33,684 bases of DNA, from assembly GCA_001791325.1 (NCBI GenBank), contig MGEK01000039.1:65175-98858 (forward strand). The letters run 5' to 3'. Positions 738 to 32,850 of this stretch are shown here, one piece after another (positions within the stretch are counted from its first letter, which is position 1; each line of letters starts with the position of its first letter). Origin of the DNA: Candidatus Uhrbacteria bacterium RIFCSPLOWO2_01_FULL_47_25. Lineage in GTDB: Bacteria; Patescibacteriota; Patescibacteriia; GWA2-46-9. The position numbers and the translations under genes were made by a program. A model generated the notes under the pieces. The model was not told where the DNA came from, made no database searches, and worked only from the letters and a program-made list of their open reading frames with translations.

Positions 738-1145
738 TTATACCATTCTTTTTGTATAACTCTTTTTGCGTAATTCTACGAAAATAATCACCACCAGCAG
801 CACAATAATGAAACTTGCAACTTCTAAAAAAATATTGCGGGCGGTAATCGCTACACCCGCTTTATTTAAAAAATAGACAATCAATGGCACCACGGCAATA
901 GACAGGGCAAATGATAATGTAAACCGCTCAATCCAATCAAGTTGTTTTTCCTCTGTTGGCGCATGGCGCGGAAAAGCTAACTCAATGATGAAAAATCCTG
1001 GTAAAAAAAGCATAAATACTGTGCCGAAAACAATCCGCAATGCTCCACGAAACGGTAGCCAAGAGCTCAAAGCTGCAGACAGAATCAACAAACTCAAAAT
1101 AATACCACCAATAACGAAGAGATTTTTTTTAATCTTCTCTGACAT
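738..1145 (-). CDS. DUF1616-like membrane protein, short form
   Basis: A 135-aa protein with about four membrane segments (roughly residues 9-29, 34-54, 72-92 and 103-124). The block 'GALRIVFGTVFMLFLPGFFIIE', then a proline/charged loop, 'LDWIERFTLSFALSIAVVPL' and 'NKAG' matches the N-terminal membrane half of DUF1616 proteins, which are usually longer and carry an extracytoplasmic C-terminal domain. Only the membrane part is present here. It is the last gene of a three-gene minus-strand set: its start overlaps the end of the preceding gene by 17 bp, implying translational coupling. The function is unknown; DUF1616 genes often lie in surface-polysaccharide regions. Confidence 0.7.
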   Translation of the reverse strand: MSEKIKKNLFVIGGIILSLLILSAALSSWLPFRGALRIVFGTVFMLFLPGFFIIELAFPRHAPTEEKQLDWIERFTLSFALSIAVVPLIVYFLNKAGVAITARNIFLEVASFIIVLLVVIIFVELRKKSYTKRMV

Positions 1146-1869
1146 AATAATTATCTACCATGATTAAGATTGATATCAACAAAACCAATAACGCGGAAAG
1201 AATGGCTACGGCGAGTCCTGTCCAGCCCATCGCCCCAACTTTCCAATAAACGATTAAACCTGCACCTGCTGTCAATATACCAATAATCCCCCATTCTCTC
1301 CAGCCAATGTGCTGTCTAGAATTATTCTCTTGCAACTGCGTAATTGTTCCGCCTTTTTGAACATTCAAACTCACGGAAACTATGCCCGCAAATATTAACC
1401 AGACAAATAAGGTATTTAATTTAAGCTGTAAATTGATCAAAGCCCAATTCGTTTTAAACTCTTCAATAACGAGTAAACATAAATACAAAATGAGAAACCA
1501 AGAAAAAACTGTTCTTGATAAGACGGACAGTCTTTGAACTAACGTCTGACCGTTTAAAATTCGCTCCTTAAAAAATCCAACAACAGTATCCGCTTTTATA
1601 ATCAGTCTAACTAAAATCCTAATCAATAATTTGCCGCCCCTAAAATCACTTCGTTTCTCGCGCAACCACAGTCTGATTCCGTCAATATGATATAAAAATT
1701 TTAAAATCGCGCTTATGCCGACAAAAGCATACAAGGGGCCAATGAGAAGACCAGTGTCCATAAGCCATCCCTTTGTTAATTTATTAGCAATCAAAAGTCC
1801 GGCTAAGCCAAAGACATAAAATCTAAAACTAACTTCGTTTACTTCCAAAATTGCCGTGGCCAATTTCAT
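1129..1869 (-). CDS. Six-TM integral membrane protein of unknown function
   Basis: I place the start at the ATG at 1869 because it shares an ATGA with the stop of the upstream gene (1866-1868), a classic coupled overlap. An in-frame ATG at 1899 would add ten residues inside the upstream gene. The 246-aa product has about six hydrophobic segments, two near the N-terminus, two in the middle and two near the end. A basic, amphipathic stretch (after 'LWLREKRSDFRGG') lies between segments 2 and 3. I do not recognise a family. The surroundings (a GT-C-like protein upstream and a DUF1616-like protein downstream) suggest a membrane partner in glycan assembly or export. Confidence 0.7.
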   Translation of the reverse strand: MKLATAILEVNEVSFRFYVFGLAGLLIANKLTKGWLMDTGLLIGPLYAFVGISAILKFLYHIDGIRLWLREKRSDFRGGKLLIRILVRLIIKADTVVGFFKERILNGQTLVQRLSVLSRTVFSWFLILYLCLLVIEEFKTNWALINLQLKLNTLFVWLIFAGIVSVSLNVQKGGTITQLQENNSRQHIGWREWGIIGILTAGAGLIVYWKVGAMGWTGLAVAILSALLVLLISILIMVDNYYVRED

Positions 1870-3500
1870 GGCAGGTTTTTTAATGGTTGGTATTCCCATA
1901 TATGTGCACTAATTCTCTTACTATATTTATTTAAAAATTCTCTCATTGGCTTGTTCTCATTCTGCCTTGAGCCGACGAAAATATAAATTGGGTCGTCCCC
2001 ATAACGTCTTAACAATTCAACGCGCTCGTCGTCTGTTCCTTTATACCAAAATTTTTCCCACTCTTCAAGGGACCAGTAATTGATAAAATACCCCGGAGCG
2101 ATAGTGCGCTCTGTTAAATACCCGTAAACCCATGGCGTATAATATGCATCAGTTGCCATTCCATAAGCATTTGGTTCAAGTTGGTGCGAGGCCATATTAA
2201 GTTCTTTGAGCTCTACTGGCGAAATCCACGGCTCCCGCGTCCAACTATAATAAAGTATCACTCCTGAAAATCCCACTACAAAAATCGCTAGTAAAATACG
2301 CCCCCAGTGTGTATCTTTGAAATATTCAATCAACTGCGCCAAGGCCACGCTCGCAAAAATGATTATAAAAAGATCAAGAATAATAAGATAACGTTGATAA
2401 AATACAACACGCCCTAATATGAGAATAAAAGTAGTGATAAAAAATGATAAGAGAAATATTAGGCCATTAGCTGATACCGTCATCCACCAAATTTTGACTC
2501 GTTTCAAAAGCATCCAAGCACCAAGCAGGGCCAGCGGGGTGTAAAAAAGTGTACTTAAACGAAAAGCTGTAAAGTTTAAATACAAGCCCGTAAGTTCAGC
2601 ACTCAAAAATGGCTCAAAATTTGCCAATTGCAATTTACGTTCAATTATATAAGGAAGGTACCCGCGAAGTTCGTGCCAATTCACAAGGATAGCAAGCGCC
2701 AAAATGCCAAGACCAGTGACAATTACTTTTTTAATTATTCTATTGCCATCCAAGTTGATAAAACGGTGGCGCCACCATAACCACCTACCTACCATCACTA
2801 TTGTATAAACACCATATGCCAACCCAAACACCAAAAACGTAGCCGGATGCAATGCGCCAGCAAACCCGCCAGTCAAAATAGCTAACCACGACTGACGCGA
2901 GACCAGAGCAATGGTCACCATAAACAGCATCACGGAAATCATCATCCTATAAAACATCCAAATATAGGCCTCGTGCTGGGCAATAGACAAAACAAAAATT
3001 AAAAGGGCAGACAGGGCAATAATTTGATTACGGAACAATGATTTAGCGGCCGTATAGAGAGATAATCCCAATAAAACATTAAAAACCGCCAGAAAACCAT
3101 ATAGCATCGCATTGACCGAAAATCCAAGGGCTGATAAAATATGAACAATCGGTGAAAGCGGTCCGGCTTGTCTGGTCCCAACCAAATATTGTTCAAATGC
3201 CCTCAAATAAATTCCTGTATCATACCCCAGAGGCGTTTCGCCCCAATGAAAAAATGGCACTATTCTTATACTCAAAAGAAGTATCAATATTCCAGCTAAT
3301 AAACCTTGAGGATATTCCTTAATATTTTTTTTACCTTGCTCCCAAAAATGCGCCATCCAAAACAAAAAAATCGCAAACAACAAAAAACTGACCCGATACC
3401 ACCAGACCATCTGGCGAGGCGTTACTAAAACAATAATGAGGAAGTACGCCAAAGCAAATATCCAATAACGATAAGAAGCGCGCATAGTTTTAGTCAGCAT
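1866..3500 (-). CDS. GT-C-like polytopic membrane protein, putative lipid-linked-sugar glycosyltransferase
   Basis: A 544-aa protein with about 11-12 predicted membrane helices and a soluble C-terminal ~110 residues, the architecture of GT-C glycosyltransferases. After the third helix comes 'GYDTGIYLRAFEQYL' (residues 92-106). This places an acidic residue (D94) in the first large outer loop, where GT-C enzymes keep a catalytic or metal-binding carboxylate. The C-terminal part ('MASHQLEPNAYGMATDAYYTPWVYGYLTERTIAPGYFIN') resembles the periplasmic tails of oligosaccharyltransferase-like proteins. It heads the minus-strand trio and is divergent from the epimerase gene at 3533, with only 32 bp between them. 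Donor and acceptor are unknown. Fold assignment is from topology and motif position only. Confidence 0.7.
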   Translation of the reverse strand: MLTKTMRASYRYWIFALAYFLIIVLVTPRQMVWWYRVSFLLFAIFLFWMAHFWEQGKKNIKEYPQGLLAGILILLLSIRIVPFFHWGETPLGYDTGIYLRAFEQYLVGTRQAGPLSPIVHILSALGFSVNAMLYGFLAVFNVLLGLSLYTAAKSLFRNQIIALSALLIFVLSIAQHEAYIWMFYRMMISVMLFMVTIALVSRQSWLAILTGGFAGALHPATFLVFGLAYGVYTIVMVGRWLWWRHRFINLDGNRIIKKVIVTGLGILALAILVNWHELRGYLPYIIERKLQLANFEPFLSAELTGLYLNFTAFRLSTLFYTPLALLGAWMLLKRVKIWWMTVSANGLIFLLSFFITTFILILGRVVFYQRYLIILDLFIIIFASVALAQLIEYFKDTHWGRILLAIFVVGFSGVILYYSWTREPWISPVELKELNMASHQLEPNAYGMATDAYYTPWVYGYLTERTIAPGYFINYWSLEEWEKFWYKGTDDERVELLRRYGDDPIYIFVGSRQNENKPMREFLNKYSKRISAHIWEYQPLKNLP

Positions 3501-3532
3501 ACACTAAAATAATTTATTCGTCATCCAAAATT

Positions 3533-4462
3533 ATGAGAATTCTCATCACGGGTGGTTTGGGTTTTCAGGGCAGTCACCTAGCCGAACACTTCCATAAAAA
3601 GGGACACGAAATCACTATTCTCAACACTTTTTCTAATAGAGCCAAGACTCTCTTAGAGCAATTCAATTTGCCATGGCACTGTGTTTGGGGCAGTATCACC
3701 GATCGAGAGTTAGTGGAAAAAACAGTCCGTGACCACGATGTTGTATTCCATCTAGCGGCTAGAATTAACGTTGATGAATCCATTAAAGACCCGGAGGCCT
3801 TTTTAACGACCAATGTCTATGGAACCTATAATGTCTTGGAGGCAGTAAAAAAATACGACAATAGACTTATCTTTGCCAGCAGCTGTGAGGTTTATGGAGC
3901 TCCCACAGAACACATATTAGTCAATGAAAAAACCGAATTGCGTCCGCACAGTCCCTATGCCGCCAGCAAAGCAGCCGCCGATCGCCTTTGTTTTTCATAC
4001 TACAAAACTTATGGAATAAATGTGACAATCGTAAGACCGTTTAATATATACGGCGAACGTCAAAAAGAGGGTCCGGGCGGTGCCGCGGTGGCAATTTTTG
4101 TAAGAAAATCACTACAGAATGAGTCAATTACCATATTTGGCGACGGCTCACAGACGCGAGATTATTTAAATATTGATGATTTAGTTCGGGCCTATGATTT
4201 AGTTTTCCAACATAAAGAACTGGCCGGTGAAACAATTAATTTCGGCACCGGTAAAGAAACTTCAATCAAAGAAATCGCAGAATATGTATCCAAGAAGTTG
4301 AATACCAATATAGAGTATAAAGAATCACGACTAGGCGAAGTAAAAAGTTTTGTGGCGGCCGAGATTACCAAAGCGCGCTCCTTGGGGTTTGAGCCAAGGG
4401 TTGATATCTGGACAGGTGTTAATCGCTATATCGAGTGGCGTAAACAACAACCACTTGCATGA
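3533..4462 (+). CDS. Extended SDR NAD-dependent sugar epimerase/dehydratase
   Basis: A 309-aa extended short-chain dehydrogenase acting on NDP-sugars. The NAD-binding GxxGxxG is at residues 7-13 (GGLGFQG). The catalytic set is Ser116/117 (FASSCEVYG) and Tyr142-x3-Lys146 (SPYAASK). 'RPFNIYGERQ', 'GDGSQTRDYLNIDDLVRA' and 'NFGTGKETSIKEIAEYV' are typical of the UDP-glucose 4-epimerase/dTDP-glucose 4,6-dehydratase group. The exact reaction cannot be told from sequence by eye. It is the first gene of the long plus-strand run, and its stop overlaps the next start as ATGA at 4459-4462. Cytoplasmic, and likely supplies an activated sugar to the adjacent glycosyltransferases. Confidence 0.85.
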   Translation: MRILITGGLGFQGSHLAEHFHKKGHEITILNTFSNRAKTLLEQFNLPWHCVWGSITDRELVEKTVRDHDVVFHLAARINVDESIKDPEAFLTTNVYGTYNVLEAVKKYDNRLIFASSCEVYGAPTEHILVNEKTELRPHSPYAASKAAADRLCFSYYKTYGINVTIVRPFNIYGERQKEGPGGAAVAIFVRKSLQNESITIFGDGSQTRDYLNIDDLVRAYDLVFQHKELAGETINFGTGKETSIKEIAEYVSKKLNTNIEYKESRLGEVKSFVAAEITKARSLGFEPRVDIWTGVNRYIEWRKQQPLA

Positions 4463-7091: not shown

Positions 7092-7126
7092 GTCAAATGT
7101 TAATTGTTAAATGTCAATTGTACAAA
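7092..7126 (-). repeat. Tandem 7-bp repeat array, downstream flank, inverted orientation
   Basis: Five consecutive heptamers of form GTCAANN (GTCAAAT, GTTAATT, GTTAAAT, GTCAATT, GTACAAA). This is the reverse complement of the NNTTGAC units at 6631-6679. The array ends four bases before the asnB-like start codon at 7131, so it makes up the whole leader of that gene. Confidence 0.8.
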
Positions 7127-7130
7127 ATCT

Positions 7131-9041
7131 ATGTGCGGAATTACCGGTAAAATATACTTCCACAATGGAGGGCGGGTGTCCGAAAAAGAGATCCATCGAA
7201 TGAACGAAAAAATCAAACACCGTGGACCTGATGGTGAAGGCATTTATATAAACCAGCGCGGCAATGTTGGGCTTGGCCACCGCCGTCTTGCGATTATTGA
7301 CCTCTCTCCCGCCGGGCATCAACCGATGTCAAACGAAGATGGAACAGTTTGGATTGTGTTCAATGGAGAAATCTACAATTTTCAGTCCCTTCGTCATGAT
7401 TTAGAAAAACAAGGACACAAATTCAAATCCCATACCGACACAGAAATCATCATCCATCTTTGGGAGGAACACGGCGAGAATTGTCTTAAATACCTGCGCG
7501 GTATGTTTGCTTTCGCAATCTGGGATGAACGAAAGCAAAAACTCTTTTTAGCCCGCGATCGTGTTGGGAAAAAACCATTAAAGTACTACATCGGCAAAGA
7601 TTTTATTGTTTTTGCTTCAGAGCTCAAAGCGTTTCTTGGCGAGCCGGATGTGCCTCGAGAGATGGACTTTGAAGCGATTCACCACTACCTCACCTTCCAG
7701 TACGTGCCGCATCCGATGACTGGATTTAAAAATGTTAAAAAACTTCCGGCCGCCCATTATCTTACTATTAACCTTTTTGGAACTACGCCAAAAATCTCTG
7801 AACCAACTCGCTATTGGAACCTTGATTATTCAAAAAAACTTAATCTTTCAGAAGAAGAATGGTGCGAACGAATCCTCGCCAAGCTTAATGAATGTGTAAA
7901 AATCCGCATGATTGCTGATGTCCCACTTGGTGCATTCCTTTCCGGTGGAGTAGATTCCTCTGCTATTGTCGCGCTCATGGCTAAAAATTCTCCCCAACCA
8001 GTAAAAACATTTTCTATTGGATTTAGCGAAAAGGCGTTTAGCGAGCTTCCGTATGCGAGAATGGTGGCAGAACGATACGGTACAAACCACCAAGAATTCA
8101 TTGTTGAACCTAACGCGATTGAAGTACTGCCTAAATTAGTTTATCACTATGAAGAGCCGTACGCCGACTCGTCGGCTCTCCCCACTTTTTACCTCTCTCA
8201 AATGACGCGACAATATGTGACAGTTGCACTCAATGGAGACGGTGGGGATGAAAATTTTGCAGGGTACCCTTGGTATCATGTAATGCATATTGCTGCACGA
8301 TACAATAAATTACCTTATCTCATAAAGAAAACAAATCATCTTATTGTTGATACAATAGCAAGATTCATGCATCAATCGGCTTTTCTTCGTTATGGCATGA
8401 TCTATACAAAGGGGTCTCTTTCGTCGCCTGCGTATATGCACACTGAACTACTTGCGTACTTGAATGAACAAGAAAAGGAAACTATGTATAATAACGAATA
8501 CCTTAGCCTGCTTGAAAGCCATCCTACATGGAAATTCCTTGAGCAATATTACATGCAGGCGCGTAGGTATGATCCGATTGATGCCGCGCTGTTTACTGAT
8601 ATCAATACCTATCTTGCGAACGATCTCCTCCCAAAAGTTGATGTCGCCTCAATGTCGGTCTCTCTTGAAGCACGATCCCCTTTGTTGGATCATGAATTTA
8701 TGGAACTCGTTGCACAAATACCTTCTTCCCTGAAAATTAGACATGGCGAAAAAAAATATATCTTCAAAAAACTCCTTGAACCATTGGTACCAAGAGAAGT
8801 TATGTATAGAAAAAAAAGGGGGTTCAATATCCCGATTAATCTTTGGTTTCATACCTCTCTCTATGAATATGCAAAAGAAATACTTCTCAACAACAACGCA
8901 CTCAACCAACTAATACTAAAAGAAAACGCTGTTGAGTCACTTCTTAGTCGCCATCACCAGGTGGCGAAAGAAGGACGCCGGATATGGCTCCTGCTCACGC
9001 TGGAACTTTGGTTTCAAAACTTTTTAAAATACAAAGCATAG
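7131..9041 (+). CDS. asnB: Glutamine-hydrolysing asparagine synthase-type amidotransferase
   Basis: I set the start at the ATG at 7131 because it makes Cys2, the catalytic nucleophile of class-II glutamine amidotransferases (MCGITGKIYF). An upstream in-frame ATG at 7104 would bury that cysteine and lies in the 7-bp array. The 636-aa product has the glutaminase domain (HRRLAIIDLSPAGHQPM, NGEIYN) followed by the ATP-pyrophosphatase domain with SGGVDS at residues 271-276, then 'GDGGDENFAGYPWY', 'RSPLLDHEFM' and 'KKRGFNIPI'. It is full length and all key motifs are present. In a glycan cluster such proteins may amidate a sugar carboxylate, as proposed for WbpS-like enzymes. True asparagine synthesis is the alternative. 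Confidence 0.9.
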   Translation: MCGITGKIYFHNGGRVSEKEIHRMNEKIKHRGPDGEGIYINQRGNVGLGHRRLAIIDLSPAGHQPMSNEDGTVWIVFNGEIYNFQSLRHDLEKQGHKFKSHTDTEIIIHLWEEHGENCLKYLRGMFAFAIWDERKQKLFLARDRVGKKPLKYYIGKDFIVFASELKAFLGEPDVPREMDFEAIHHYLTFQYVPHPMTGFKNVKKLPAAHYLTINLFGTTPKISEPTRYWNLDYSKKLNLSEEEWCERILAKLNECVKIRMIADVPLGAFLSGGVDSSAIVALMAKNSPQPVKTFSIGFSEKAFSELPYARMVAERYGTNHQEFIVEPNAIEVLPKLVYHYEEPYADSSALPTFYLSQMTRQYVTVALNGDGGDENFAGYPWYHVMHIAARYNKLPYLIKKTNHLIVDTIARFMHQSAFLRYGMIYTKGSLSSPAYMHTELLAYLNEQEKETMYNNEYLSLLESHPTWKFLEQYYMQARRYDPIDAALFTDINTYLANDLLPKVDVASMSVSLEARSPLLDHEFMELVAQIPSSLKIRHGEKKYIFKKLLEPLVPREVMYRKKRGFNIPINLWFHTSLYEYAKEILLNNNALNQLILKENAVESLLSRHHQVAKEGRRIWLLLTLELWFQNFLKYKA

Positions 9042-9067
9042 TTCACAACGATGTAATACATATACGT

Positions 9068-11917
9068 ATGCATAAAAAAATGGCGCGAAGGGCTTATATA
9101 CTGACTTTCATCTTGTTTTTTGTTGCACCACAGATTATCTTGGCCGCACCTCAATGGCCACAATGGAGAGCGAATGAATTTCACACCGGAACAATAGAGG
9201 GGAAGGGAGTAATTCAAAATCCTAAAATTGTCTGGCGTTATCCACTTGGCGGCACATTGCTTCCGGAACATATCGTCATACAAGATATTGATAAAGATAA
9301 CAAAATAGATATTTTAGTAATCAATAATGGCAAGCTGATACGATATACTGAAAACTTTGGCATACACTGGATAAGTCCACAAAGCAGTATCCAAAGCATT
9401 TATGGATTCCTTTCTCGCGATAATCGTATTCAATACATTGTCGCTGGTAACGTCTCGCCTTTCTCCTCACTGAGTCAGCTCATCCTTATCAATATTACAA
9501 CCGGACAAATCGCGGCTGAATCACCAATAATTCAAAATGGCATTGGGGCGGTAAAAATAAAAGATATCAATCGCGACGGTTTTGAAGAAATTATTTGGCA
9601 TCCTGCTTTCTCCAATACGGTTTGGGTATACGCGACAAAGAATAATTCTTTTGAGCTCCTCTGGGAAACAACTATACCTAACTATATTTCCGACCCATTT
9701 TCATTTTCCCCCATGATAATAGGTGACCTCAATAATGATGGGCACGATGAAATCATTATAGCTGGCGGACGAGGATTACGTCCTATTATAGTTATAGACC
9801 GAAATGGCAATATCCTTGATCGTTTAGATTATGGTGAAAAGAGTGGTGAAACTGGCGGAAAAAATCACTTCGTCTCCATATTGGAGGGTGAAAATCCAGG
9901 TCTTGTAATTGTCGGAGGATGGCCGAGATCAGAGAACTACATGTTCCAAGGGATCGGCGTATTTAAAATGGACGGCAATACTGTGCGCGAAATATGGGTG
10001 AAAGAAATTGTACCCGATGGACTAAGTTATCTTGCTAGCCCCTTGGTAGATATTAATGGAGACCAAAAACCAGAAATCGTCATTAATACCTTAAAATTGG
10101 ACGCTGGTCCTAAGGATATTGAAATCTACGATTTAGAAACAGGTGGGATAATCTGGCGACAGGCTGGTAAGCTCATAAATATACTCAATAAAGATAGCGA
10201 CGGCTCATCAGACTTGATAATCCAAAAAGAAAATGAGCTGAATTTTTCATTAATAGAATTCTCACCACAACCACAACAAAAACAAGAATTGCTACCAGTA
10301 AACACCTATGCGCTCCCCGAAAATGATCTAGTTTTTGCTCCGCCCGAACTGCCAATTAGAACGCTAGAAAGCAATAGATCCAAGCAACCACACTATTTTC
10401 AAACCCCCTCGTCATGCAAAATACAACAACAATATACGTTTACGCGGTTAGATCAGAATACCAATTTAATTCGAATGTCTGAAGCTTGTCCGACAAAAAA
10501 TATGGCACAAAAGATATTAAGATGGATAAATGAAAGGATATTTTTTCAGCTTTCCAAACAAGAAAATATTATTGAACGCTCGCAAAATATTGCTTTCTTG
10601 GGGAGCGATATAAAACACAGGGGAAGATGGACTCGCGCATCATTCTGGTTTCAAATTGACAACAAAATCATCCGACTTGAAAAAGGGTACTTCTCCAGAA
10701 AAATCAAGGAAAAAGACTTTATTGTCTTAAATAATTTCTATAAAAATCAGTGGGGTAAATGGGGAAATACACACGGCACCGAAGTTGCCATTATCACGGA
10801 CCGTGATGGAGACGGCCGTAATGAAATTGTGACAATAAACGCAAAAAATGAATTGCAGGAAATAAAAAACGTTCTCGAGGCGCCAATAGTCACTACACTC
10901 TATCGCGGTTCCACCCAAGAGCTTTTGAGCTTTGACCATGATAATGATGGCAAAAAAGAACTCATAGTCCGCGACTACTTGTCTGTTCCTAAAATCGCGC
11001 TTCTTGATTCGCGCAATAAGATATTGTGGGAACACGAATTCGCAGACGCAAGCAACATAACTGGATTTTCTTACGGCGATTTTAACGACGACGGCACGCA
11101 GGATGTAGTAGCATTTGTCCGTACGCCCCTACACACATATCCCTATGAAACATTCGTGCTCAACGGGAAAGATGGCACAACTCTTTTTCACAATGACAAA
11201 TTTGGAGCATATTCCAATGCCACAAGTATTGTTCTGGATATCAATCGTGACAAAAAAGAAGACATAATATTCAACGCAAACGTATTTAAGATGGTTATAC
11301 TTTCCCCTTCTGATGACACCACAATCTTCCCTGGAGTAAATATCGCTTCTCCGGACTTTCCAGACTATGGCGGGGTTCCAATCTTTATCAAGTTCAATGG
11401 CAGAGTAGCTCAGTTTGTTAGTGCTGGTGATAGTAAAAGTACTATTGGATTTAAAACTGGAAATGGAGTTTCACAAATCACTTGGCACGCGCCCCATCAA
11501 TTTGTTAATCAAGAATTGTTATCACTGCCGACAGTTATACATCGCGGCAAAAATAAGTCCCCCCTTCTTATTAATGGCACGGCGGATGGTAAACTTATTG
11601 CCAGAAACGAACTATCGGGAGATACGGAATGGACCATAAAGCTCATGAACGGCGCTATTGCCGCGGACGATCAAACGATAATAAACCAGCTAAGCAGTGT
11701 GGTCACTGCCGATATTGATGGCGATACGGCAATGGAAATTGTCGTCGGGGGATATGATGGCTGGCTTTATGCTCTTGAAGGAGAAAGTGGAAAACTGGAA
11801 TGGTCTATTAATATACACAACGCTGTTGGTGATCCAATTTTGGGAGATGTTGACGGAGATGGATTAATTGATATTCTCGCGCCAACTGCGGATGGCTATC
11901 TCAATCTTGTTAAATAA
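9068..11917 (+). CDS. Exported FG-GAP/VCBS beta-propeller protein
   Basis: I choose the ATG at 9068, 26 bp after asnB. It gives a clean signal peptide: basic MHKKMARR, hydrophobic core to about residue 25, and cleavage after 'ILA' or 'LAA'. The 949-aa product then has PQWPQWR, a motif common at the start of PQQ-type propellers. About ten calcium-binding FG-GAP loops of form DxDxDGxxE/DI follow, from residue ~73 (DIDKDNKIDILV) to ~927 (DVDGDGLIDILAP), for example DLNNDGHDEIIIAGG and DRDGDGRNEIVTI. Residues ~440-560 lack these loops and may form a separate insert. Secreted or surface-held; likely binds or displays a ligand. No sortase or peptidoglycan anchor is seen. Confidence 0.85.
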   Translation: MHKKMARRAYILTFILFFVAPQIILAAPQWPQWRANEFHTGTIEGKGVIQNPKIVWRYPLGGTLLPEHIVIQDIDKDNKIDILVINNGKLIRYTENFGIHWISPQSSIQSIYGFLSRDNRIQYIVAGNVSPFSSLSQLILINITTGQIAAESPIIQNGIGAVKIKDINRDGFEEIIWHPAFSNTVWVYATKNNSFELLWETTIPNYISDPFSFSPMIIGDLNNDGHDEIIIAGGRGLRPIIVIDRNGNILDRLDYGEKSGETGGKNHFVSILEGENPGLVIVGGWPRSENYMFQGIGVFKMDGNTVREIWVKEIVPDGLSYLASPLVDINGDQKPEIVINTLKLDAGPKDIEIYDLETGGIIWRQAGKLINILNKDSDGSSDLIIQKENELNFSLIEFSPQPQQKQELLPVNTYALPENDLVFAPPELPIRTLESNRSKQPHYFQTPSSCKIQQQYTFTRLDQNTNLIRMSEACPTKNMAQKILRWINERIFFQLSKQENIIERSQNIAFLGSDIKHRGRWTRASFWFQIDNKIIRLEKGYFSRKIKEKDFIVLNNFYKNQWGKWGNTHGTEVAIITDRDGDGRNEIVTINAKNELQEIKNVLEAPIVTTLYRGSTQELLSFDHDNDGKKELIVRDYLSVPKIALLDSRNKILWEHEFADASNITGFSYGDFNDDGTQDVVAFVRTPLHTYPYETFVLNGKDGTTLFHNDKFGAYSNATSIVLDINRDKKEDIIFNANVFKMVILSPSDDTTIFPGVNIASPDFPDYGGVPIFIKFNGRVAQFVSAGDSKSTIGFKTGNGVSQITWHAPHQFVNQELLSLPTVIHRGKNKSPLLINGTADGKLIARNELSGDTEWTIKLMNGAIAADDQTIINQLSSVVTADIDGDTAMEIVVGGYDGWLYALEGESGKLEWSINIHNAVGDPILGDVDGDGLIDILAPTADGYLNLVK

Positions 11918-26245: not shown

Positions 26246-27616
26246 TCAGTGTGGAGCCAGTATTCGAACAATGTCAGCAGCATTACCGGACCCGTTCATA
26301 TCAACAAGTATGCGCCTAGAGTATAGAGAAAGACCAATTAAAAAAAGCAAGGAAACAATAATAACTGAAAGGATCGCGCCTGCAATTCCAAACGCGGGGA
26401 TCATAAAAAGATTAAGAATAAAAACCAGAAATGCCATACTGACAGACCAAACCGAGTAAAACCTTTGCCCACGAACACCCTCTGAAACTAACAGAGAGCC
26501 CTTCGCGTTAATAAAAGTATACAAAATTGCATTGAACGCAAAAAGGAAAATCCATACAACGTCCACCGGATAATCTTTTCCATAGATCAGGAGCAAGATA
26601 TAAATAATAAAAGCATTAAATAGAAAGAGAGGGAAAAACGTAACCTTCATCAATCTGTTAAGCTTTCTATCAAGACCTGCTTTATCCTGACTGCTACTTG
26701 CTGTAGGAAGAAATACTTTCATAAAAACAGAAATAAAACGTCCCAAAATCATCAATGAAGCCCCGTAATAAACTGCGTAGATTCCGACACTTCTAATATC
26801 AAGAAATTTATTGAGAAAAAAACGGTCACTGCCCCATAAAATAAATAAACTGATAGACCCCACAATACTATAAAACCCATAGTGGAGAAGAGTTTTTAGT
26901 GTCTTTCTATCAAAAGATGACACTCTAATATATTGCTTGTTACGCATAAAGACAGTAAGGGCGTACACCAACAACCCAACAGAAAATGTTATGAGATAAT
27001 CAACAAATGTCAGCATCAACCGTTTACTCAAAAAAAGTCCAAAAAAAACAAAAAAGGTGATCACTGAATACAGAACATCCATAACCGCCTGCGTGCGAAA
27101 TTGAAGCATACCTTTCAAAATAGACTCAGCGCCAAGTTTGACAGCCGTAAAGACACTGTACACAATCGCAATGGTAACGATCCCGAAGGGAATGTCAAAA
27201 AGGCGGGCCATCATATCACGAGCAACAACGAACAGAATAGCAAAAATACCCATAAAAAAAATACCGCCGGCCACGCCTGTTGATATAACCATTGTTTGTA
27301 TATTCTGTTGCTCTTTGTATTCTGGAAGATATTTTATAACACTTGCCTGAAGACCCATAAGCATAAAGAGTGGTAAAAAATTCGCAGCAGTAAACACAAG
27401 CGCCACCTTGCCATACTCTTCTGGACCCAAAACCCGGACAGCGACAACCTGCACCACAAACAATATGACGCCTGACACGATAGCGCCCAACCCCATGTAA
27501 CTCATATTTCTGACAAAGCGCACCATATCACTGCCAATATCTTTGCCAAATACAAACACATGCGCTCGATTGATGATTCTATTTCCGAGTAGATTTATAC
27601 TTTGAAAGACCCACAT
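26246..27616 (-). CDS. Wzx-type lipid-linked oligosaccharide flippase
   Basis: A 456-aa MATE/MOP-superfamily membrane protein with about 12-14 helices. After a hydrophilic lead-in, 'SYMGLGAIVSGVILFVVQVVAVRVLGPEEYGKVALVFTAANFLPLFMLMGLQASVIKYLPEYKEQ' is the standard N-terminal signature of polysaccharide transporters. 'ILGRFISVFMKVFLPTAS' follows at mid-length. The first ATG at 27616 gives ~35 extra residues before helix 1; an ATG at residue 31 is an alternative. It moves undecaprenyl-linked units across the inner membrane, so the cluster is of the Wzx/Wzy-dependent type. It separates the sugar-synthesis half of the operon from the transferase half. Confidence 0.88.
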   Translation of the reverse strand: MWVFQSINLLGNRIINRAHVFVFGKDIGSDMVRFVRNMSYMGLGAIVSGVILFVVQVVAVRVLGPEEYGKVALVFTAANFLPLFMLMGLQASVIKYLPEYKEQQNIQTMVISTGVAGGIFFMGIFAILFVVARDMMARLFDIPFGIVTIAIVYSVFTAVKLGAESILKGMLQFRTQAVMDVLYSVITFFVFFGLFLSKRLMLTFVDYLITFSVGLLVYALTVFMRNKQYIRVSSFDRKTLKTLLHYGFYSIVGSISLFILWGSDRFFLNKFLDIRSVGIYAVYYGASLMILGRFISVFMKVFLPTASSSQDKAGLDRKLNRLMKVTFFPLFLFNAFIIYILLLIYGKDYPVDVVWIFLFAFNAILYTFINAKGSLLVSEGVRGQRFYSVWSVSMAFLVFILNLFMIPAFGIAGAILSVIIVSLLFLIGLSLYSRRILVDMNGSGNAADIVRILAPH

Positions 27617-27630
27617 ACCGCAAGCACACG

Positions 27631-28761
27631 TTATTCAAAAATTTCAACCTTCTTATTGATCTCCTTGAGTTGTCTAAAAATTTCATCTCGATATGGCCCG
27701 ACTTTCAAGATCACTGCCGGTTTCTCGACATCGCGCAGTATCTCTGGATCCGCTACCATAAGCCGGGAACCATAGAGACGTTTACCTTGTTTAAGTTTTG
27801 AATTATCAAGAATACAAGTAATTTTATCGCCACGTAGCCCAAATTCAAGTAAGTACTGTGAAAAGATATGTCCTCCAAAAAGATATACATCACCTTCAAA
27901 TGAATTTATCTGCTTATTTAATTGGCCAACAATGGTTGTGTGGTAACTAATAAACTCCATAAATAGATCTTTATATTCATTATATTTGCTTTCTAGAAAG
28001 GGCAGGGTATTCACTTCGCCAACTTTTTCCGCAGTGTAATAGACACTGTGCTCCTGATAGAACCGCTTGTCAGTAATCCGGAAACCGTGCACCGCAAGTA
28101 AGTAATCAACAAAATAATCAGTCAGCAACATATTGTGTTCAAAATTCAGGGCGGTAGTGTATTTATTTTTAAGCCATACGTCAAGCTGTGGATACGCAAA
28201 TATAAGTCTTCCTCCCTCTGGCAGGTATGAAGCAATGGCTCGTAAAAACTCATTCGGATCATAAGCATGCTCAAGGGTATGAGAAAATACGACGGCATCA
28301 TACTGTTCTTCTGATTGAAAACGCTCATCAAAAAACGCGGGTATTACTTTGATGCGTTCATCAGAATCGCGAAGCGGATTGGGTTCTACAATTGTCCATA
28401 TGGTATCGTCCGTTTCCTCAACAAAGACTTCTCCCAATGTTCCTTTTCCTCCGCCGATTTCCAAAATTTTCTTTGGAGACTGTTTTGCGATGTACTTTGT
28501 GAAATCCTTATAAAATGCCTGCCAAGTGGGTCCGGTTCCGTCCATATGCTGCGCTTGATACAACACCTCAAGGGGAAGCAGTTTGTCAATTTGAATAACG
28601 CCTGTTTCGGGGCATATTGCAAAACTCATATCCGCGCGCACATCCTCTCTAGAATCATGATCAACACAACCAAAAAATACGGGGAAATTTTTAAATGTAT
28701 ACAATGGTTCTAAATTCTCCTTGCTAGTAATCACGCTTTTATTCCGAATAATATAATTCAT
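27631..28761 (-). CDS. C-methyltransferase-like SAM enzyme with C-terminal Rossmann domain
   Basis: A 376-aa protein with three parts. Residues 1-~75 resemble the N-terminal region of sugar C-methyltransferases (Methyltransf_13) but keep only one or two cysteines, so zinc binding is doubtful. Residues ~95-230 are a class I domain with KKILEIGGGKGTLG (97-110) and 'YDAVVFSHTLEHAYDPNEFL'. Residues ~285-376 ('VYLFGGHIFSQYLLEFGL...CILDNSKLKQGKRLYGS') match the Methyltransf_14 C-terminal domain. This organisation is that of NDP-keto-sugar C-methyltransferases. It lies three bases after the KdsC-like gene and is probably a late step in the same NDP-sugar pathway. Confidence 0.78.
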   Translation of the reverse strand: MNYIIRNKSVITSKENLEPLYTFKNFPVFFGCVDHDSREDVRADMSFAICPETGVIQIDKLLPLEVLYQAQHMDGTGPTWQAFYKDFTKYIAKQSPKKILEIGGGKGTLGEVFVEETDDTIWTIVEPNPLRDSDERIKVIPAFFDERFQSEEQYDAVVFSHTLEHAYDPNEFLRAIASYLPEGGRLIFAYPQLDVWLKNKYTTALNFEHNMLLTDYFVDYLLAVHGFRITDKRFYQEHSVYYTAEKVGEVNTLPFLESKYNEYKDLFMEFISYHTTIVGQLNKQINSFEGDVYLFGGHIFSQYLLEFGLRGDKITCILDNSKLKQGKRLYGSRLMVADPEILRDVEKPAVILKVGPYRDEIFRQLKEINKKVEIFE

Positions 28762-28764
28762 AAT

Positions 28765-29331
28765 TTACTGCGCCTCTGACGGTCCTGACCAAGCGCCTGA
28801 ACCGCGTTCAAAGGTTAGTTTAAATACATCAAATCCGTCAAAAAACTTTTCCAAAATGTGAACACAAGCTTCTGCTACCGCACCTTCGGACCCACGCGCG
28901 TTGGTTGCAAAGTCCGCCAGTGCCTTTGTTTTACAAAACGCGTTTGCGGGAGCAATGCTGTATGCCACTTCTTTAAATACAAGCGCATCATAGATTCCAT
29001 CTCCCATAAAAATTGTTTTGTTTAAATCAAATCGTTCTTTCATCCATTTTATACGATCAAAGGTGCTAACAAGATCAAGGGGATACTTCATATCATCAAT
29101 GCGCTTTTTAGTGATTGGAAAACCGCGCTTGTCACCGGAAATCATGTGAATCGTCAATTTGTGGCGTAAAATACTCAACGCGTCAGCATCGTCGGGTCCG
29201 AATTTTTTCATTACTTTTCCTTCCGCAGTATAATAAAATTTCCCATCTGTAAGTACGCCATCAACATCTATTACGAAATATTTTGGTACAAATTGCCCTT
29301 TTTCAACTAGTCCTGATTTAAAACTTTCCAT
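28765..29331 (-). CDS. KdsC-like HAD-family sugar phosphatase
   Basis: A 188-aa HAD hydrolase of the KdsC/YrbI type. Motif I is FVIDVDGVLTDG with the nucleophile and acid Asp22/Asp24. 'MISGD' is motif II, a Lys follows, and 'IFMGDGIYDALVF' is motif IV with its Asp pair. There is no cap domain, as in KdsC, which dephosphorylates Kdo-8-phosphate. No Kdo synthase or cytidylyltransferase accompanies it here, so the substrate is more likely an intermediate of the operon's own sugar pathway. Its start overlaps the end of the upstream kinase fusion gene by 25 bp, and the next gene follows after three bases. Confidence 0.82.
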   Translation of the reverse strand: MESFKSGLVEKGQFVPKYFVIDVDGVLTDGKFYYTAEGKVMKKFGPDDADALSILRHKLTIHMISGDKRGFPITKKRIDDMKYPLDLVSTFDRIKWMKERFDLNKTIFMGDGIYDALVFKEVAYSIAPANAFCKTKALADFATNARGSEGAVAEACVHILEKFFDGFDVFKLTFERGSGAWSGPSEAQ

Positions 29332-30899
29332 AAATTTAACTTCCCAAAATAAAACAAAAAAAGATCAAAAGGGTGATGATGTAGTGGCGACATATTAAGC
29401 CAGATAATCGTGGTAAGAATTTTTACTTTCTTTAGATCATATCCGTGCTCCAGAATAAACTGATGTAAAATTTCCTGACACAGCACCAATTTATGCGGCC
29501 GCATGATATCACAAGTTACATTCCCATTTGAATCTTCAATAGTAAAAAGATTGGCATCTATGATGTCATGGTTAACCGTGAGATTATGATTCAGTTTGCC
29601 AAGGTCATAGTACATATCGCCTGCTTGTAAAAGTCCACCAAAATTTTGTCGCCAGTCAAGCAGACAATAGCCGCCCGGTGTTCTAATAATATTATCTAAA
29701 ACTAGATCACCATGAAATCGCGACTGCTTTGTACTAGTCAACCAGTCAAAATCCACCTTACTAAGAAGCTCTGCAACCGAAAGCACGTGCTCGCCGTTTA
29801 TAACATCTGCCTGATCCTGTATTCCTTTTTTCTCTAAAAACTTAGATACTCTCTCTTTGGTCTTAGTTGAATAAAAATCATAACATATCTGCTGAAATTT
29901 GTCAGCATCTAATTCATGCGCTTTTTGCCAAATATTTTGATCAGCCCATTCTAAAAATTGCCTAAAATCTCTAGGAGTCACCACACGAGGATATAGCTCC
30001 CCTTTCGCGAAGGTATACCGATAAAAATTCTTTCCGGTTGCCTCTATTTCCGGCACCAGACCCTTAAGTTCCCTTGCTCGCGCTACCCTGTCGCGTACCA
30101 TTTCTTCTTTTGCAAAAAACTTTATTACAAATGTATCATCAAAGATAAAAATTGATTCATCAAGTTTATCAAGCACAGTGATCTTGTCGGGAATATTCTT
30201 GCGAGCATACTGTAAACTCGTCTGGTTGCCAATATCCAACCATACATTATACGGCACCCACTCAAATGACACATCTTTGTGCAACATTTGATCCAGCACA
30301 TGCACCTCGGAAAGAGATTGATCTAAAGGATTGTTTTGATACAACTGTTCCAAGATTTGCCAAAACATTTGATAATCCTGAATACCATCAAGACCGATGT
30401 GGATAGATTGAAAATCGGACTCGCCCTTATCAAGAAGTTTAACAATACGTTCACCCTCAACCTTATGTGTCCGATATTGAGCCAAGGGCATACCTTGCTC
30501 TATCGCTCTTTCAATACAAAATCCGGCAATCCAATTTCGATCAAGTGCCGGAATTGGTTCAGTCACAATAGTGTCACAGGCATGAAAAATAAAGGGACAT
30601 TGTAAATGCTCTTTCGCATGCAACATTGAATAACCCAAACTACTACCCGGACCTTCAAAGTTATCCACCTCAACAAACGTAACTTTTCTATCTGGATAAG
30701 CAAGTTTGACAAACTCTTTTACATGATCACGAAAATATCCAACTGTAATCACAAGCTCAACCTCTTTTTGATATGCCTCAATAATATAAGAAAGCGCCGG
30801 CTTTTTACCCACTCTTACTAGCGCCTTGTTGGTATATTTTGTGATATCGCCCAAACGAGAACCCGTACCAGAGGTGGTAATAAGCACCTTATAATTCAT
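29307..30899 (-). CDS. Bifunctional nucleotidyltransferase-APH/choline-kinase-like kinase
   Basis: A 530-aa fusion. Residues 1-~230 form a RmlA-type nucleotidyltransferase: loop TTSGTGSRLG (8-17), catalytic-position Lys25 (TNKALVRVGKKP), Asp109 (HACDTIV) and the second metal Asp in 'VWLDIGN'. Residues ~245-520 form an aminoglycoside-phosphotransferase-fold kinase with the catalytic loop HGDLVLDN (396-403) and metal site LLDW (413-416). All catalytic residues I can check are present. This suggests phosphorylation of a sugar or small alcohol followed by nucleotide activation in one protein. A LicC-LicA-like phosphocholine route is an alternative. It is paralogous at the N-terminus to the 31591-32850 product. 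Confidence 0.82.
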   Translation of the reverse strand: MNYKVLITTSGTGSRLGDITKYTNKALVRVGKKPALSYIIEAYQKEVELVITVGYFRDHVKEFVKLAYPDRKVTFVEVDNFEGPGSSLGYSMLHAKEHLQCPFIFHACDTIVTEPIPALDRNWIAGFCIERAIEQGMPLAQYRTHKVEGERIVKLLDKGESDFQSIHIGLDGIQDYQMFWQILEQLYQNNPLDQSLSEVHVLDQMLHKDVSFEWVPYNVWLDIGNQTSLQYARKNIPDKITVLDKLDESIFIFDDTFVIKFFAKEEMVRDRVARARELKGLVPEIEATGKNFYRYTFAKGELYPRVVTPRDFRQFLEWADQNIWQKAHELDADKFQQICYDFYSTKTKERVSKFLEKKGIQDQADVINGEHVLSVAELLSKVDFDWLTSTKQSRFHGDLVLDNIIRTPGGYCLLDWRQNFGGLLQAGDMYYDLGKLNHNLTVNHDIIDANLFTIEDSNGNVTCDIMRPHKLVLCQEILHQFILEHGYDLKKVKILTTIIWLNMSPLHHHPFDLFLFYFGKLNLWKVLNQD

Positions 30900-30902
30900 G
30901 AT

Positions 30903-31589
30903 TTATTTCAAATTAGCGTCTATTGTCTCTTGCAAGTCTTTTATTCTTTCGGCTACGTTTTCACCCTGCTTAAATATCGTGGAACTTCCGCAAACGAGTC
31001 GTGTCGCCCCGCGGCGCACCATTTCTGGCGCGCTTTCAGGAGTGACTCCTCCATCAATCTCTATTTCAATCGCGCGCCCTGCAAATTTTTTTTTCAAATC
31101 GCTAATCTTGTCTAGTACCCTTGGAATAAGCTTATGTCCAACTATTCCCGGGTTAATAGCCATCAGCATCACAACTTGAATATCGTCCAAGACATAATCC
31201 AGCACATTCAGCGGCGTGGCGAGATTGAGTGCCGCGCCGGCATTGGCACCAGCGTCGCGTATTTTTTTTAGCGCGCGATGCAGGTGTCGGTGCGACTCTA
31301 CATGAGGCATAATAGTCGTTGCGCCGGCTTTTACGAATGTCTCGATGTATGGCTCAATATCCTCAACCATAGCGTGAACATGAATTGGCAACGAAGTTAT
31401 TGAGCGAATTTCGGCAAGCATTTCGGGATGTAATCCGTACCGTGGCACAAACAAAGCATCCATGACATCAAAATGGAGTGATTCAATACCGCCCTTTTCC
31501 AGTCGCTTAATCTCTTCGCCTAACTCCAACATATTGGCGCAGATAAGCGAAGCTGTTAAAGTATAAGACCGTGTAGCTGAAGTTCCCAT
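30903..31589 (-). CDS. Ribulose-phosphate 3-epimerase family protein
   Basis: I set the start at the ATG at 31589, one base after the TAA of the upstream gene (31591-31593). An upstream in-frame ATG at 31646 would overlap that gene. The 229-aa product is a TIM barrel of the Rpe family, opening 'TASLICANMLELGEEIKRLEKGG'. The four metal ligands of Rpe are conserved: His39 and Asp41 (LHFDVMD), His72 (IHVHAM) and Asp179 (IEIDGG). The phosphate-loop region NPGIVGHK departs from the usual NPGFGGQ, and DVMDA replaces DVMDG. It is probably an active C3-epimerase acting on a ketose phosphate other than, or besides, ribulose 5-phosphate. Confidence 0.85.
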   Translation of the reverse strand: MGTSATRSYTLTASLICANMLELGEEIKRLEKGGIESLHFDVMDALFVPRYGLHPEMLAEIRSITSLPIHVHAMVEDIEPYIETFVKAGATTIMPHVESHRHLHRALKKIRDAGANAGAALNLATPLNVLDYVLDDIQVVMLMAINPGIVGHKLIPRVLDKISDLKKKFAGRAIEIEIDGGVTPESAPEMVRRGATRLVCGSSTIFKQGENVAERIKDLQETIDANLK

Positions 31590-31590
31590 A

Positions 31591-32850
31591 TTATTCAAGA
31601 TTAGAATGCCGTGACCACATAGTTTCATGCATCTCACCAGTTTCAAGCATAAGGCGGAGTACTATAGCATCAAAAAAAATTCCTAAACATTGTTCATTTA
31701 ACGTTGTCATTGGCTGAATACTCCTAAACCCATCAATTGGCTTAGTTTTTGAAGGGGCGGGAATCACCACCACAATATCAGCGAGCTTACCCATGCGTGA
31801 CTCTGGATTCGCAGTAACAAGCGCTATTCTTGCTCCCCGATCCTTGGCGAGGGTCACAAGATCATAAATTGTCTGCGTCTCACCAGAGCCAGAAGCGACC
31901 AAAAATAGATCATCCTGCCCAATCGCGGGCACCACTGAATCTCCCAAGGTAAACGCTCGTAATCCAAGATGCCCCAAGCGCATGGTAAATCCACGTACAG
32001 CCATACCTACCCGCCCCGCGCCGCAGGCGACAATTGTTTGAGCGTTCAAAACTGCCTGTGCCAATCTCTCTGTTTGCCCTATGTCAATCTTGCCCAATAC
32101 AAAATCGATCTCTTCAAGGATTTTACTGATATGATCCTTTGAATTAACGGGAATACCATCGCTGAAATACTCCCGAGCGTGTTCAAGGCTTTCTGTATTG
32201 CCAATATCATGCCATGTTTCAAACGGCCGTACAACAAACTCCTTGCCATTTTTAATCATCTCATTTATTACTCGGCAATCATTTAAACTTCCGTCATTAA
32301 GGTCAGCAAGATAGAGTCTTTCAAGATGCGACCAAAATTCCTGATAATCATGAACTCCTACTAAGCCAATATGAATATAATCAAAATCAAGATTGCCCTT
32401 GTTTTTAATTTCTTTAATATAATTATCGTTCACCTGAAACGAACTATAGATTGCCGAATCGTTTCCTTTAAAACCGCCGCTCCAGTTGGATGACGGAGGC
32501 AATACTGGTTCTTTGACAATAGTATCGCTCGCATGAAAAACGAAGGGGCATTGAAGATAATCCTTGGCTTTTAGCATAGAATAACCTAGACTACTGCCCG
32601 GTCCTTGATATTTATCAACTTCAACAAAGGCAAACTTCCGAGTAGGATAAGCGAGCTTAACAAAATCTTTAACCTGTTGGCCAAAATGTCCAAGGGTAAT
32701 AACGCTCTCAACTTCAGACGGATAGGCATCAATAATATGAGCAAGGGCGGGTTTACGGCCAACTCTTACGAGCACTGGATTTGTGTGTTGCGGAATTCCA
32801 CCCAAGCGAGATCCTGTCCCAGAAGTGGTAATCAATACTTTATAATCCAT
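31591..32850 (-). CDS. Nucleotidyltransferase-like domain fused to HxlB-type SIS isomerase
   Basis: A 419-aa fusion. Residues 1-~230 are a RmlA-like nucleotidyltransferase paralogous to the one in 29307-30899; 41 of the first 60 residues are identical by eye. The catalytic-position Lys is Pro25 here (TNPVLVRVG). Residues ~240-419 are a SIS domain like 6-phospho-3-hexuloisomerase (HxlB): CGAGRVG (276-282), GSGET (321-325), 'IQPMTTLNEQ' with Glu386, and the end 'MWSRHSNLE' with His415. These are nearly the same landmarks as Bacillus HxlB. It probably interconverts a ketose and an aldose phosphate. No HxlA (hexulose-phosphate synthase) is nearby; the neighbour is the Rpe homologue. Confidence 0.82.
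   Translation of the reverse strand: MDYKVLITTSGTGSRLGGIPQHTNPVLVRVGRKPALAHIIDAYPSEVESVITLGHFGQQVKDFVKLAYPTRKFAFVEVDKYQGPGSSLGYSMLKAKDYLQCPFVFHASDTIVKEPVLPPSSNWSGGFKGNDSAIYSSFQVNDNYIKEIKNKGNLDFDYIHIGLVGVHDYQEFWSHLERLYLADLNDGSLNDCRVINEMIKNGKEFVVRPFETWHDIGNTESLEHAREYFSDGIPVNSKDHISKILEEIDFVLGKIDIGQTERLAQAVLNAQTIVACGAGRVGMAVRGFTMRLGHLGLRAFTLGDSVVPAIGQDDLFLVASGSGETQTIYDLVTLAKDRGARIALVTANPESRMGKLADIVVVIPAPSKTKPIDGFRSIQPMTTLNEQCLGIFFDAIVLRLMLETGEMHETMWSRHSNLE

Follow-up and report, generated by a model that had tools for sequence, protein, structure and literature searches.

A conserved gene cassette that may activate a rare sugar, with two interchangeable front ends, in bacteria, archaea and phages

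The locus considered here raises the question of why a sugar-phosphate epimerase, an isomerase, a phosphatase, a kinase and nucleotidyltransferases (NTs) should be encoded together beside a polysaccharide flippase. It lies at positions 27631 to 32850 of a 33,684-nucleotide stretch of DNA, hereafter the window, from contig MGEK01000039.1 of Candidatus Uhrbacteria bacterium RIFCSPLOWO2_01_FULL_47_25, a genome of 1.2 megabases in 40 contigs. An earlier note, made from the letters alone, had read the locus as an undescribed nucleoside diphosphate (NDP)-sugar pathway encoded by five contiguous, nearly gapless minus-strand genes just before wzx, and the open reading frames, Pfam matches and motifs confirm the genes and their families. 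The observation is more general than that single-window reading: the cassette is found in numerous bacteria, in some archaea and in large phages. As far as the literature searched shows, it is an undescribed, probable NDP-sugar pathway built from known families, since searches for the gene combination returned neither a description nor a published assignment. We tentatively favor, at slightly below even confidence, the reading that the product of the window's cassette is a rare aldohexose, activated with a nucleotide and destined for a surface glycan, which would arise by way of fructose 6-phosphate and allulose 6-phosphate. If true, this would bring to light a widespread way of making an activated rare sugar that has so far gone undescribed.

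Neighboring genes of the five are separated, or overlap, by between a few bases and some tens. They stand in the transcription order NT-SIS, Rpe, NT-APH, KdsC-like HAD and methyltransferase, followed by a Wzx-like flippase and glycosyltransferases:

31591 to 32850, minus strand: NT-SIS fusion of 419 amino acids, with NT at about residues 1-234 and HxlB-like SIS at about 239-419 (TIGR03127, motif check)
32776 to 32778, minus strand: codon for Pro25 of NT-SIS, where NT-APH has the conserved lysine, K25
30903 to 31589, minus strand: AlsE-like Rpe-family member, readable from TTG 31646; the start is most likely ATG 31589, which lies next to the NT-SIS stop
30969 to 30989, minus strand: Rpe loop after beta-strand 8, GSSTIFK; it has one residue more than the RPE loop and equals AlsE GTSGLFN in length
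29307 to 30899, minus strand: NT-APH fusion of 530 amino acids, with an active-looking NT at about residues 1-235 and an APH-family kinase at about 241-530; the cassette core
28765 to 29331, minus strand: KdsC-like HAD phosphatase, whose first 25 bases coincide with the end of NT-APH
27631 to 28761, minus strand: methyltransferase with the deoxysugar C-methyltransferase fold (MtmC, TcaB9, KijD1); an optional member
26246 to 27616, minus strand: Wzx-like polysaccharide flippase (Polysacc_synt match), downstream

The window stops on the right where its 98,858-base contig stops, so that the operon may have further genes upstream.

The cassette core and its two front ends

A search of the genome contigs with the single NT-APH sequence returned no match; when species genomes were searched with an alignment, 76 loci were recovered. 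All cellular tallies below cover these loci, window included, which come from pattern-seeded searches among the matches listed; many are cut by contig ends, and their sources are mostly metagenome-assembled genomes. They span Patescibacteria (to which the nearest named cassette-bearing relatives of the source genome belong), the DPANN archaea Woesearchaeota and Nanoarchaeota, Chlamydiae, Bacteroidota, Alpha- and Gammaproteobacteria, Campylobacterota, Bdellovibrionota, Spirochaetes and others. Within the class of the source genome, NT-APH or its NT domain is found in 8 of 381 genomes, and plasmids hold partial relatives only.

The core of the cassette is NT-APH with the KdsC-like HAD (60 of 76 loci), and two alternative front ends occur with it. 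Type A, as in the window, consists of SIS and Rpe, with the HAD present in 20 of 22 such loci; type B consists of a GatZ/KbaZ-like protein and a PMI-like cupin. Treating loci as independent, Rpe accompanies SIS in 22 of 22 SIS-bearing loci (p = 3e-18), the cupin accompanies GatZ-like in 39 of 41 (p = 1e-12), and the two front ends exclude one another, with GatZ-like in 0 of 22 type A loci versus 41 of 54 others (p = 2e-10). The claim that the gene set is a conserved unit therefore stands; NT-APH and the phosphatase define its core, whereas Rpe with SIS is only one of the two front ends that can replace each other. The front-end type switches nine times across the NT-APH tree, and well-supported branches force at least seven of these switches, so that the exclusion does not stem from a single inheritance. 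The single type A locus with a cupin, L090, is a recombinant and a direct trace of cassette exchange: at 1108-4083 a type B block of AroE-like, NT-APH and cupin genes sits inside a type A locus, and about 30 terminal codons of the old NT-APH are left before the phosphatase. Repeated front-end exchange of this kind amounts to a natural experiment in surface-sugar diversification.

The constant pairing of SIS and Rpe shows that their adjacency in the window is not due to chance, and this bears on the simplest alternative, that both are commonplace enzymes of the ribulose-monophosphate or pentose-phosphate route whose place in a glycan locus is coincidental. Automated family names suggest as much, and the source genome does hold a weak HxlA-family relative elsewhere (70.7 bits against a cut-off of 200), a lone divergent gene at G000:C14:3032-3757 (L232) that adjoins a lytic transglycosylase/LysM-like gene. 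Yet SIS domains at HxlB level occur among the 381 genomes of the class only in the source genome, G000 (184 bits), and in G346 (140) and G362 (187), all others scoring at most 48; these three are exactly the genomes with Rpe-type cassettes. No HxlA (hexulose-6-phosphate synthase) above cut-off was found in any of the three, and in G346 and G362 nothing matches HxlA even weakly. The window Rpe, moreover, is not the housekeeping copy: that is a second Rpe-family gene at G000:C19, which adjoins a transketolase gene and scores 90 bits versus 195 for the window copy. With SIS and Rpe traveling together with NT-APH, phages included, the neighborhood data largely refute this alternative, to which we give next to no credence. 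Three outcomes had been named in advance as telling against a new pathway, namely that the set is not conserved, that its Rpe is the genome's only one, or that the set belongs to an already assigned sugar; we found instead a conserved set, a second Rpe, and, in the literature searched, no sugar assigned to the set.

How can one core accept two front ends? GatZ and KbaZ interconvert fructose 6-phosphate and tagatose 6-phosphate as 4-epimerases (PMC11907403). The type B enzyme, which has no counterpart gene in the window, is a relative that shares Asp87, His88 and His257 with them (retained in 43 of 43 cassette sequences) but has all of Cys20, Glu44 and Lys279 replaced, so that its product may differ from tagatose 6-phosphate. 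We speculate, as a possibility that we rate doubtful, that Rpe with SIS and GatZ-like with cupin are independent routes to the same rare sugar phosphate for one kinase-nucleotidyltransferase, in a cassette that circulates among bacteria, DPANN archaea and phages, so that the rpe, hxlB and gatZ genes of phages and small genomes, though taken for central-carbon genes, would in fact be glycan-coat genes. The many swaps on a shared core favor a common sugar, whereas the known activities of the two front ends do not.

Two further proteins were seen around the cassette. A shikimate-dehydrogenase-like (AroE) protein occurs in 19 of 76 loci (e.g., L017 7515-8339), 18 of them not of the SIS/Rpe type. 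A protein with the pattern MLTIFANI.IN...RLQHLKDSF and no Pfam match often accompanies the cassette (L029 738-1604; L017 5765-6952; L028 3083-4840, N-terminal part), and is possibly a glycosyltransferase that uses the cassette product.

A proposed route from ketose phosphate to activated sugar

The front-end enzymes of the window carry indications of the substrate. Its Rpe matches Pfam PF00834 (E 1e-57) and has the H/D/H/D metal ligands. Within this family RPE acts on pentulose 5-phosphate and AlsE on hexulose 6-phosphate, and Chan et al. 2008 (Biochemistry) reportedly traced the difference to one extra residue after strand 8 of AlsE, which lengthens the phosphate pocket. By alignment, the loop has AlsE length in all 21 complete cassette Rpe proteins, where G[ST]S.IF (GTSTIF or GSSTIF) aligns with GTSGLF of AlsE (T196-S197-G198 region); in E. 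coli Rpe and 1rpx it is shorter, GSA[IV]F. The Rpe proteins of viral type A loci have the longer loop too, bar one short divergent copy in L144. The strand-6 loop is changed as well, to mostly NPGI[VL]GH instead of NPGFGGQ. Since the AlsE-length loop is universal among the complete cassette proteins, hexulose 6-phosphate is the likely substrate, which keeps the ketose phosphate of the earlier note and narrows it.

The SIS domain of the window scores 181.8 bits against TIGR03127, the HxlB equivalog model (cut-off 160), and that of L034 scores 199.3. Genes above this NCBI cut-off would be annotated as formaldehyde-assimilation enzymes, so that the reading favored here would correct automatic gene names in many genomes. 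The cassette SIS domains keep the C-terminal His and Glu of HxlB, and the Gly-Glu of its strand-2 loop, seen in family members in the PDB, is Gly-Asp in nearly all of them. Together, the AlsE-type loop and this Gly-Asp change favor C3-epimerization of fructose 6-phosphate followed by isomerization to allose or altrose 6-phosphate.

Both features also bear on a different use of the same enzymes, in which the pair would mimic GatZ: HxlB would convert fructose 6-phosphate to 3-hexulose 6-phosphate, Rpe would invert C4, the position in a 3-ketose equivalent to C3 of ribulose 5-phosphate, and HxlB would then yield tagatose 6-phosphate. This would explain the swap, given that the two front ends are interchangeable, that the SIS exceeds the HxlB equivalog cut-off, and that GatZ and KbaZ turn fructose 6-phosphate into tagatose 6-phosphate (PMC11907403). 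Such a scheme needs an RPE-length phosphate pocket, however, in which two carbons separate the phosphate from the carbon that reacts, and for this reason we give it less weight: every one of the complete cassette Rpe proteins has the longer loop. It also sits poorly with the loss of the HxlB Gly-Glu and with the missing cupin, the partner of GatZ, which type A loci lack outside the L090 recombinant. We regard it as unlikely.

Downstream of the front end, the NT-APH protein gives a confident AlphaFold model (predicted local distance difference test score, pLDDT, 94.5). A structure search places its NT part nearest to LicC (the best match), inositol-1-phosphate cytidylyltransferases (IPCT) and MurU. 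The Pfam match of the APH part (PF01636) is itself borderline in the window protein; across 40 members, H396, G397, D398 and D415 are invariant and N403 is at least 90% conserved (the HGD....N and DW motifs). The KdsC-like HAD has its DxD and GD motifs and scores 69.2 bits against TIGR01670, below the cut-off of 106.95. A phosphatase, an APH-family anomeric kinase and a nucleotidyltransferase also make up the MupP-AmgK-MurU salvage of MurNAc and GlcNAc (N-acetylmuramic acid and N-acetylglucosamine), and this resemblance supports the order dephosphorylation, C1 phosphorylation, nucleotidylation; MupP, AmgK and MurU are, by contrast, separate proteins that act on amino sugars and have no epimerase/isomerase front end.

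The best match to LicC might also suggest a kinase-cytidylyltransferase for an amino alcohol or polyol, with the sugar enzymes as bystanders, the more so as LicA, the partner of LicC in phosphocholine activation, is itself an APH-family kinase. The cassette NT, unlike LicC, is surrounded by sugar phosphate enzymes: a sugar-phosphate epimerase or isomerase gene stands beside NT-APH in the great majority of the cellular loci and in 81 of 81 viral loci, which makes this explanation very improbable.

The order proposed earlier (epimerase, isomerase, phosphatase and kinase, nucleotidyltransferase) fits everything found, and from it we infer the following chemistry. The AlsE-like Rpe would epimerize fructose 6-phosphate at C3 to D-allulose 6-phosphate, which the HxlB-derived SIS would isomerize to an aldohexose 6-phosphate (D-allose or D-altrose 6-phosphate). 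The KdsC-like HAD would then take off the 6-phosphate to give the free sugar, the APH domain would phosphorylate its anomeric hydroxyl, and the NT domain of the same protein would join the 1-phosphate to a nucleotide; the sequence of these last three steps is the proposed one. Loci with the methyltransferase may add a C-methylation of a keto intermediate, and the putative NDP-sugar would be used by the neighboring glycosyltransferases and the Wzx flippase. E. coli D-allose use, by AlsE, the allose-6-phosphate isomerase RpiB and AlsK, is a reverse analogue: it shares the Rpe-family C3-epimerase with a phosphate loop of the same length but runs in the catabolic direction, with another isomerase and no nucleotidyltransferase.

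Several points weigh against this allulose route. Overall the window Rpe is nearer to RPE (TIGR01163; 205.2 bits, below the cut-off of 212.6) than to AlsE (NF007266; 145 bits, below the cut-off of 271). The known activity of the HxlB family shifts a carbonyl between C2 and C3 and is not an aldose-ketose isomerization. A profile search of the PDB with the APH domain returned no close solved relative that would bear out its putative anomeric site. Finally, the swaps with GatZ-like proteins, whose characterized relatives are C4-epimerases, point to a tolerant core or to one product made by both routes, and neither follows directly from the scheme.

The first of these points would suit the same logic applied to a pentose or heptose, with ribulose 5-phosphate or sedoheptulose 7-phosphate epimerized, isomerized to an aldose phosphate and activated; other SIS isomerases do use C5 and C7 ketose phosphates. 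Heptose activation (GmhA, HddA/HldE, GmhB, HddC/HldE) likewise combines isomerase, kinase, phosphatase and nucleotidyltransferase, whereas the cassette uses an HxlB-type SIS, an APH kinase and a KdsC-type HAD and adds an epimerase. The GmhA (17.2 of 209) and HddC (24.1 of 300) models of that pathway score far below their equivalog cut-offs, as does KdsD, and the AlsE-type loop suits a 6-phosphate, so that we consider a pentose or heptose improbable.

Intact and degenerate nucleotidyltransferases, and the methyltransferase

The earlier note counted more than one nucleotidyltransferase, and two NT domains are indeed present in the window. The one fused to SIS is probably inactive because P25 replaces the conserved lysine (G, G, R, P, D versus G, G, R, K, D, where the motif check takes the G, G, R and K of the pyrophosphorylase loop and a later D), leaving no second working enzyme; the motif of NT-APH is intact. 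Where a locus has a single NT, all five positions are intact in 60 of 62 cases; of the 14 loci with two, 12 have exactly one intact NT, 2 have both, and none is left without. NT-APH keeps the motif in 3 of these 14 loci, the window among them (p = 4.5e-9 versus single-NT loci). These motif patterns point to one working nucleotidyltransferase per cassette, the window having one active and one degenerate, perhaps structural, copy. The NT-SIS fusion was found in the window only among the loci examined, SIS being a stand-alone protein in nearly all other type A loci; a different fusion, in L028 and L038, combines SIS with a glycosyltransferase-like domain and a degenerate stretch that resembles a cupin.

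The methyltransferase has a Methyltransf_14 C-terminus in Pfam, and its model (pLDDT 93) matches MtmC, TcaB9 and KijD1 over the whole length (template modeling score 0.76-0.82), other methyltransferases lying far behind. An E208-H209 pair is invariant in 23 members and may correspond to the catalytic Glu224-His225, as judged by pattern, not superposition. Identity to these sugar C-methyltransferases is about 15%, and the N-terminal region, which binds zinc in the TylC3-type family, has only a single near-invariant Cys (C32). Because TcaB9-, MtmC- and KijD1-type enzymes methylate the carbon adjacent to a ketone, a keto intermediate would be expected. The enzyme is present in 30 of 76 loci, fewer than half, and is thus an accessory, so that the C-methyltransferase-like enzyme of the earlier proposal is retained as an optional member.

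Viral copies and neighboring genes

A full-length NT-APH with 48% identity is encoded by marine virus AG-345-E15 (one record of the phage collection), and a scan of IMG/VR found at least 327 viral stretches that match NT-APH, suggesting that phages, too, produce or imitate these sugars. Among 81 viral loci read (80 from IMG/VR and AG-345-E15), GatZ-like is present in 73, the cupin in 72, and SIS with Rpe in 5; a separate viral scan with SIS alone gave nine relatives, all nine near Rpe and NT-APH. Most viral type B loci are without the KdsC-like HAD, and an unrelated small HAD gene lies near the cassette in 37 of the 81. The latter may replace the KdsC-like phosphatase, in which case the phosphatase step would be needed but filled by differing enzymes. 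The small HAD proteins are about 118 amino acids long (L113 5291-5647, L117 9615-9974, L131 5326-5673, L181 4395-4754). Loci L112-L192 (e.g., L113, L117, L131 and L161) include large phage-like contigs, up to 281 kilobases, with operons of cupin, NT-APH and GatZ-like genes that adjoin GDP-mannose-dehydratase-like, NDP-sugar epimerase and glycosyltransferase-like genes. PHROGs lists NT-APH without function and names the cupin 'cysteine dioxygenase'.

Rfam and PADLOC gave no matches. In the window itself, directly upstream of the operon and near the contig end, 32862-33503 encodes a short protein that has a membrane anchor and a weak F5/8-type C (carbohydrate-binding-like) domain. Farther away, between glycosyltransferase genes, 7104-11917 holds an asparagine-synthase-like gene followed by a gene for a 977-amino-acid FG-GAP-repeat protein.

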